Part shown: positions 22,661 to 23,497 of the stretch, one piece after another | Position numbering within the stretch: position 1 is the first letter of the stretch | How the letters are laid out: each line of letters starts with the position of its first letter | Source of the DNA: Fidelibacterota bacterium | Lineage (GTDB): Bacteria; Fidelibacterota; Fidelibacteria; Fidelibacterales; Fidelibacteraceae | DNA length: 60,083 nt | Assembly: GCA_021734505.1 (NCBI GenBank) | Contig: JAIPIT010000002.1 | Location: 1-60,083, forward strand | Direction of reading: 5' to 3' | Position numbers and translations under genes: made by a program | Notes under the pieces: model-generated | The model's database searches: none | Seen by the model: the letters and a program-made list of their open reading frames with translations, nothing else | Told to the model about the DNA's origin: nothing

Positions 22661-22686
22661 AAAAAACCCCGTTTTCTACGGGGTTT
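22661..22686 (-). terminator. Rho-independent terminator of the tRNA-Ser array
   Basis: A perfect 9-bp stem AAACCCCGT / ACGGGGTTT with a 5-nt loop, followed on the minus strand by a T-run. It is immediately downstream of the decayed third tRNA copy and so ends transcription from the tRNA-Ser promoters. Confidence 0.8.
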
Positions 22687-22689
22687 GAA

Positions 22690-22766
22690 CGGAGAGAAAG
22701 GGATTCCCCCACGGGGGTCCCTTTGGGAGAACCCTCGATCCATTTGCGCGGACATCACGCTTATTC
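22690..22766 (-). pseudogene. Decayed tRNA-Ser copy carrying the 22-nt T-loop insert
   Basis: On the plus strand, 22691-22706 is identical to the acceptor/T-arm end of the intact tRNA-Ser (GGAGAGAAAGGGATTC). Bases 22707-22728 are a 22-nt insert at the same T-loop position as in the copy at 23278-23388 and match it at 19 of 22 positions. After it, GAACCC and a diverged variable-arm segment (GCGCGGAC) are still alignable up to about 22752-22766. The anticodon arm, D arm and 5' end are gone. Two of the three differences in the insert keep hairpin pairing or fall in a loop. It cannot give a tRNA. Confidence 0.7.
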
Positions 22767-22783
22767 GTCTATCTCGTTTGTTG

Positions 22784-22872
22784 CGGAGAGAAAGGGATTC
22801 GAACCCCCGGTCCGCTTACGCGGACACCGCATTTCGAGTGCGGCGCATTCGACCAGACTCTGCCATCTCTCC
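22784..22872 (-). tRNA. tRNA-Ser(CGA), intact
   Basis: The 89-nt minus-strand gene has a 7-bp acceptor stem GGAGAGA / TCTCTCC with discriminator G, an anticodon loop CTCGAAA with anticodon CGA (reads UCG), a long variable arm (TGTCCGCGTAAGCGGAC) as expected for class II tRNA-Ser, and the T-loop TTCGAAT. CCA is not encoded. A promoter (TTGTAG, 16 nt, TATATT) lies directly upstream. It is the only complete copy in the three-copy array. Confidence 0.95.
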
Positions 22873-22878
22873 GAGGGT

Positions 22879-22906
22879 AATATAAAGAATTATTTTAAAA
22901 CTACAA
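22879..22906 (-). promoter_or_regulatory. Promoter of the intact tRNA-Ser(CGA)
   Basis: On the minus strand, TTGTAG (22901-22906), a 16-nt spacer and TATATT (22879-22884), placing the start of transcription at the tRNA 5' end. The flanking bases are homologous to those before the interrupted copy. Confidence 0.55.
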
Positions 22907-22985
22907 TCATGATTTTTATCCTGCAAATATCTGAAATACGACGAAAGTACATGATAATATAGAAATATCATTTCCCTATGTCGCA

Positions 22986-23246
22986 TTACCACATCCCTTG
23001 TTCTGTAAGATACTGCCTCAGCCAAATATTGCCTTCAACTTGCTTAAAATACATTTCTCGTTTATATGCTTCTGATCTTGTGGTAAATGATTCGGCATAA
23101 ATAACTTTAAAGGGCGCGTGTCCTTTTGTAGATCTTACTTTTCTGCTATTGTGAATTTTTAATCTTTGCCCGAGGTCATGTGTATGACCGATATAATGAA
23201 AATTATCCTTAATACTTTTAAGGACATAAACACAATATTCTTCCAT
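22986..23246 (-). CDS. Small GIY-YIG nuclease-domain protein
   Basis: The 86-residue protein is a single GIY-YIG domain: VYVLK and HYIGHT are the two name-giving strands, GQRLKIHN carries the conserved Arg/His positions, and SEAYKREMYFKQVEG contains the catalytic Glu region. It resembles the UvrC-like/YhbQ group of stand-alone GIY-YIG proteins. The ATG at 23246 with GGGGGA in front is the natural start. The frame is open without a stop through the interrupted tRNA up to 23426, which I take as accidental. It lies between the interrupted and the intact tRNA-Ser, on the same strand, and is probably transcribed from the tRNA promoter at 23395-23422. A role in spreading the tRNA-linked unit is inference. 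Confidence 0.85.
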   Translation of the reverse strand: MEEYCVYVLKSIKDNFHYIGHTHDLGQRLKIHNSRKVRSTKGHAPFKVIYAESFTTRSEAYKREMYFKQVEGNIWLRQYLTEQGMW

Positions 23247-23277
23247 ATCGTCCCCCGATATTCGGAGCGTAGTTGAG

Positions 23278-23388
23278 CGGAGAGAAAGGGATTCCCACAC
23301 AGGGGTCCCTTCGGGAGAACCCCCGGTCCGCTTACGCGGACACCGCATTTCGAGTGCGGCGCATTCGACCAGACTCTGCCATCTCTCC
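23278..23388 (-). pseudogene. tRNA-Ser(CGA) copy interrupted in the T-loop by a 22-nt insert
   Basis: This 111-nt copy is identical to the intact tRNA-Ser over all 89 tRNA bases, including anticodon CGA, but has 22 extra bases at 23295-23316, between C56 and R57 of the T-loop (TTC / GAAT). On the minus strand the insert begins TCCCGAAGGGA, a 4-bp hairpin, followed by a second GC-rich inverted segment. The break separates C56 from its T-loop context, so the transcript should not fold or be charged unless the insert is removed. Perfect identity of the body beside diverged flanks suggests recent conversion or selection. It has its own promoter. Confidence 0.85.
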
Positions 23389-23394
23389 GCGAAT

Positions 23395-23422
23395 AATATA
23401 AAGAATAATTCCCAAAGAACAA
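23395..23422 (-). promoter_or_regulatory. Promoter of the interrupted tRNA-Ser / GIY-YIG unit
   Basis: On the minus strand, TTGTTC (23417-23422), a 16-nt spacer and TATATT (23395-23400). The surrounding bases align with those before the intact copy, showing that tRNA and promoter were duplicated together. Confidence 0.55.
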
Positions 23423-23497
23423 TCATGATTTTATAAGCGTAAGTACTTGAAATATTCTTACCCTTAAATCATATAAAACATTTAATTGGATGAAATT

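Follow-up and report, generated by a model that had tools for sequence, protein, structure and literature searches.

SegB of phage T6, a free-standing GIY-YIG homing endonuclease, cleaves DNA within tRNA genes at the motif RAWTSGAAC; it also drives the amplification of the tRNA and segB in tandem (PMC13096335). This motif, as derived in our analysis, is the reverse complement of GTTCSAWTY, i.e., the T-loop; matches to it in the tRNA region of T4 lie within the T-loops of tRNA-Thr and tRNA-Gly. GIY-YIG homing genes of phages near tRNAs are already known, and so are the double-hairpin elements (DHEs) of fungal mitochondria, short G+C-rich tandem hairpin pairs that are dispersed and thought to be mobile (Paquin 2000, cited in PMC5910586 and PMC10085805). 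Comparable G+C-rich tandem hairpin pairs, likewise dispersed and thought to be mobile, are found in sponges as RHEs (PMC2800124).

The window analyzed here, a stretch of 60,083 nt from a Fidelibacterota bacterium (contig JAIPIT010000002.1), resembles the SegB system of T4 and T6 in that a GIY-YIG gene lies between tRNA genes and the T-loop motif is present; tandem arrays of tRNA parts and nuclease, as seen at other loci of the family, are a further likeness. In contrast, SegB is a phage protein of 221 aa, whereas the window nuclease has 86 aa and is chromosomal, and the two are distantly related. Furthermore, the account of SegB describes neither a hairpin-plugged 3' tRNA copy nor a favoured isotype (PMC13096335).

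A tRNA-Ser(CGA) array around a GIY-YIG gene

On the minus strand, within positions 22661-23428, a plugged tRNA-Ser(CGA) is followed by a GIY-YIG ORF, then by an intact gene for the same tRNA and finally by a decayed, likewise plugged 3' copy (Table 1). Alignment, ARAGORN, Rfam and Pfam confirmed this order, which the initial annotation had proposed. Copy 1 is identical to the intact gene over the whole tRNA except for a clean 22-nt insertion, and ARAGORN does not call it as a tRNA. The SegB motif is whole in the intact tRNA-Ser and split in both plugged copies. In an Rfam scan of the window, tRNAs were the only matches and no family was found for the insert; with its 22 nt the insert is much shorter than any known self-splicing intron.

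Table 1. Features of the tRNA-Ser(CGA) array, in window coordinates.
Feature	Position	Strand	Basis
tRNA-Ser(CGA) copy 1, full length, T-loop holds 22-nt double hairpin	23277..23388	-	alignment with intact copy
22-nt double-hairpin insert TCCCGAAGGGACCCCTGTGTGG, between T-loop C56 and R57	23295..23316	-	sequence, alignment, family covariation
GIY-YIG nuclease gene, 86 aa, UPF0213-like	22986..23246	-	Pfam PF01541, profile matches, invariant residues
Intact tRNA-Ser(CGA)	22783..22872	-	ARAGORN; Rfam 55.3 bits
SegB-type motif GTTCGAATC in T-loop of intact tRNA-Ser	22796-22804		motif scan
Decayed tRNA-Ser 3' copy, T-loop interrupted	about 22690..22757	-	sequence match 22690-22754, 88% identity
Second 22-nt double-hairpin insert TCCCAAAGGGACCCCCGTGGGG, in decayed copy	22707..22728	-	pattern match
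Terminator-like hairpin, 3' of last tRNA copy	22664..22686	-	one found, 0.8 expected by chance

Two promoters had also been assigned to the array; a consensus scan lent them no support, and what is visible are about 70 nt upstream of copy 1 and of the intact tRNA-Ser that are homologous but diverged. Of the proposed terminator the hairpin itself is present, but its weight is small given the chance expectation of the scan. The region being an assembly error is unlikely, because a genome of the same genus (G009; its locus, L039, is the same as CALMFL010000085.1, a Marinimicrobia MAG) was assembled independently and carries this locus too, next to the same gene. There, an intact tRNA-Ser is followed by two tandem units, each consisting of a GIY-YIG gene and a 3' tRNA copy with the insert.

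Nuclease genes abutting tRNA genes

The window nuclease matches Pfam PF01541 (1.7e-15), which places it in the GIY-YIG superfamily, and its profile finds PDB 1zg2 (1.2e-14) and SLX1 (6e-7). Residues Y7, Y18, G20, R28 and E64 are invariant in the profile set (A1), members of which occur in 112 of 245 genomes of the phylum. Its sequence relatives are the UPF0213/SLX1-like GIY-YIG proteins (PDB 1zg2, 1ywl, SLX1), for which we found neither a tight tRNA link nor tRNA-copy tails described in the literature searched; among phages, relatives were distant matches only.

We sampled phylum loci by their score against a profile built from tRNA-associated members, and among the 67 with enough upstream sequence a tRNA lay within 400 nt of the nuclease gene in 60. 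The tRNA (in one case tmRNA) stood directly upstream on the same strand in 51 of these 67 loci, where a rough estimate of chance adjacency gives 1-2%, and the gap between tRNA and nuclease has a median of about 11 nt, with over half of the gaps at 12 nt or less. A second sample, taken around a Bacteroidetes genome, showed the association at 27 of 29 loci. The isotypes in both samples include Ser, Leu, Asn, Glu, Pro, Ala, Asp, Gly, Val, Lys, Arg, Met, Gln and Cys. The idea of a selfish, tRNA-targeted element around the nuclease, already voiced in the initial annotation, gains support from this link in most loci of the two phylum samples and from the T-loop sequence split by the insert, which is the motif cut by the GIY-YIG enzyme SegB. 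At one locus (L403, G054:C60) the nuclease gene lies directly 3' of the tmRNA, and two copies of the tmRNA 3' end with an interrupted T-arm follow behind the gene.

Several individual loci deserve mention. At L089, L322, L332 and others, the nuclease start codon lies 0-10 nt past the tRNA 3' end, which suggests a leaderless mRNA freed by tRNA processing. At L382 (G122:C20) and in G127:C153, the usual upstream gene and the nuclease are retained and the tRNA-Leu(CAG) is absent from the locus. Nuclease genes without a tRNA, flanked by inverted repeats, occur at L349, L390 and L408; two of these three, judged by eye, apparently lie inside a four-helix-bundle-like gene.

The nuclease gene is often followed by a copy of the local tRNA's 3' end. 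In 34 of 39 such copies the T-loop is interrupted or replaced, with the 22-nt element or an unrelated palindrome as the usual cause, and in the remaining five a hairpin has replaced the anticodon arm. Blocking of the T-loop is hence not universal, as several loci keep an intact T-loop in the tail copy and have another arm altered. Tandem arrays reach up to eight units; at L459 (G314:C34), eight GIY-YIG units stand in tandem with tRNA-Met-like 3' copies between them.

Tandem duplication and decay of tRNAs are common, and the array could be read as just such an event beside an unrelated nuclease gene. Since this combination is met again at a dozen isotypes, at tmRNA and in many families, we regard this as extremely improbable. 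The plugged copies, which are co-oriented with the nuclease gene and match the local isotype, might also recall a toxin-antitoxin-like pair, in which the nuclease would attack tRNA as an RNase, with the plugged copy as an uncuttable decoy RNA. We consider such a pair very unlikely, because many of the copies consist of a 3' fragment alone, the majority of plugged copies lack a nuclease and the known relatives SegB and SLX1 act on DNA.

In a nuclease tree of 59 loci, built on 76 columns and with many unresolved forks, tRNA isotype required 15 changes (31-35 when shuffled) and host family 35 (39-42 when shuffled). From this it follows that nuclease lineages follow the tRNA and not the host, although the isotype clustering could in part stem from vertical descent within lineages. 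Within one genus, a single tRNA-Leu(CAG) locus is empty in some species, and in others decayed, filled or occupied by two units with plugged 3' copies. Presence and absence at a fixed site, together with a tree that follows isotype and not host descent, is the pattern of a free-standing homing endonuclease.

The 22-nt double hairpin as a dispersed repeat

The insert consists of two tandem 11-nt hairpins, each with 4 bp and a 3-nt loop. Across the double-hairpin family, 95.5-97.3% of pair cells are paired, with 15-17 double changes vs about 4 in shuffles. A smaller set of copies was anchored by nuclease or tRNA, i.e., selected without the insert pattern; it gave 95.5% standard pairs and 15 double changes vs 4.4 when shuffled, and sliding the partner destroyed the signal. 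Stem variants are TCCC/GGGA, CTCC/GGAG, TGCC/GGCA and TCAC/GTGA. As in DHEs, two tandem hairpins are thus maintained by compensatory changes. The likeness to fungal DHEs and sponge RHEs, paired tandem hairpins in dispersed positions, is one of form; unlike these, the repeat seen here resides in bacterial chromosomes, has a fixed length of 22 nt and inserts into hairpin loops with exact empty sites.

The insert is present in relatives, where the initial annotation had proposed to look for it: GGTTCTCCCNNNGGRAYYCC gave 22 matches in 13 of 245 genomes (reversed-pattern control, 0). The pattern TCCCNNNGGGAYYCCNNNGGRR matched in 18 of 18 selected genomes (about 98 matches vs 1 for the reversed control) and in 39 of the 245 phylum genomes, and the genome of the window itself holds several further copies. 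The reversed-pattern controls ruled out that the insert matches arise by chance; for the double-hairpin count a reversed-sequence control is uninformative, since a reversed double hairpin is again a double hairpin. Viral contigs gave 16 pattern matches, in no case near a tRNA or GIY-YIG gene, and no viral carrier was seen.

Inserts in T-loops sit between C56 and R57 and leave the T-stem of the local tRNA intact. Many other copies occupy apical loops of unrelated palindromes: a flanking stem score of at least 10 was found at 15% of double-hairpin places vs 0.1% of random places. One Ignavibacteria genome has both empty copies of the palindrome, CCTCTCCTTTCAGGAGAGG, and the filled form, CCTCTCCTTT and CAGGAGAGG with the 22 nt between them. 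Further copies were seen in an anticodon loop, in a D-loop and inside another double hairpin. The double hairpin is a dispersed repeat with exact empty/filled pairs. These copies elsewhere rule out an insert specific to T-loops or GIY-YIG loci, so that the initial annotation lacks support in its original form: the insert is not peculiar to this array, and a GIY-YIG gene is not always within 600 bp, as most dispersed double hairpins have no nuclease nearby. Conversely, other nuclease loci hold unrelated hairpins at the place of the insert.

As single cases, two genomes (G262, L230-L244; G251, L254-L269) hold the 22-nt double hairpins in loops of dispersed palindromes, and G262 has empty copies of the same palindrome elsewhere. 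In the region of L164:2422, one double hairpin is nested in the loop of another (TCACGAAGTGATGCCTTTGGCA).

Short dispersed palindromes with a possible enzyme acting in trans bring to mind REP/REPIN sequences and their RAYT, although here the enzyme fold is GIY-YIG and the repeat is a 22-nt unit of two 4-bp hairpins. The nuclease might mobilise the double hairpins by opening hairpin loops for insertion, as an autonomous partner of a non-autonomous repeat. This would agree with its occurrence in 34 of 39 genomes with double hairpins vs 78 of 206 without (Fisher p 9e-9), with inserts that occupy loops in exact empty/filled pairs and with the inverted repeats that flank some nuclease genes. The odds ratio, however, drops to 5 when stratified by family, the nuclease was not detected in five genomes with hairpins, one family (f5) is rich in nucleases without having hairpins, and most dispersed hairpins have no nuclease near them, so that we find mobilisation by this enzyme unlikely. 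A wider version of the idea would be a single mobile system, in which the enzyme opens palindromic loops (T-arms, terminators, REP-like sequences), the hairpins travel as non-autonomous passengers and the cassettes specialise on single isotypes across phyla; this, too, appears unlikely. In view of the weaker signal within families and of the many hairpins far from any nuclease, we treat the hairpin as a separate, recruited repeat.

Candidate homing on tRNA genes

We consider it rather probable that nuclease gene and tail copy form a homing cassette of the free-standing GIY-YIG type, which lives as a parasite of tRNA genes and in which the displaced 3' copy of the tRNA cannot be cut. The architecture, its recurrence, the tie to isotype and the presence or absence of cassettes are observed, and cleavage and mobility are inferred from them and from the likeness to SegB. 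The nuclease would cut the T-loop of a cognate tRNA gene without cassette, and repair would copy the donor across, beginning in the intact tRNA, passing the nuclease gene and ending in the tail copy. The recipient would be left with one intact tRNA, its original 3' end displaced behind the nuclease gene, and a palindrome in the displaced T-loop would abolish a second cutting site. In the window genome, this plugging palindrome would be the 22-nt double-hairpin repeat, which may insert independently into hairpin loops. A point against the model is that the motif is still present in the intact tRNA at the host locus, so that an additional specificity would have to prevent self-cutting. Tandem arrays could arise by unequal exchange among the repeated parts of the tRNA, and the three-copy array of the window, with its one intact tRNA, would be a result of this exchange.

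Alternatively, the hairpins might act at the RNA level, where they would stop the duplicated 3' half from competing for the tRNA 5' half or from being processed as a tRNA, and where they would also provide a stable end to a nuclease mRNA read through from the tRNA promoter, with no protection of a site. Plugging of any arm (T, anticodon or D), the equal service of unrelated palindromes and start codons often only 0-10 nt past the tRNA, which leaves no space for a promoter, all fit such a role. An RNA-level role, however, leaves unexplained why nuclease lineages follow isotype and why most inserts interrupt a known GIY-YIG motif at precisely one point, between C56 and R57; we therefore hold it to be possible, if on balance unlikely.

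Our literature search, which covered few subscription journals and extended to work on double-hairpin elements, brought up no earlier description of GIY-YIG cassettes that abut chromosomal tRNA genes and carry plugged copies of the tRNA. The layout recurs at many tRNAs and at one tmRNA, and does so in two or more bacterial phyla; it has the look of a family of selfish genes that is large but has drawn little notice. A common family of small nucleases, usually annotated as hypothetical or repair-like, is thereby suggested to consist of selfish genes living on tRNA genes, each lineage mostly tied to one tRNA isotype and able to occupy the tRNA without destroying it. Besides describing a double-hairpin repeat of bacteria whose empty sites are clean, this work offers an account of some of the broken tRNA copies in genomes, and with the cassettes it becomes possible to test how homing genes specialise on a target and protect themselves.
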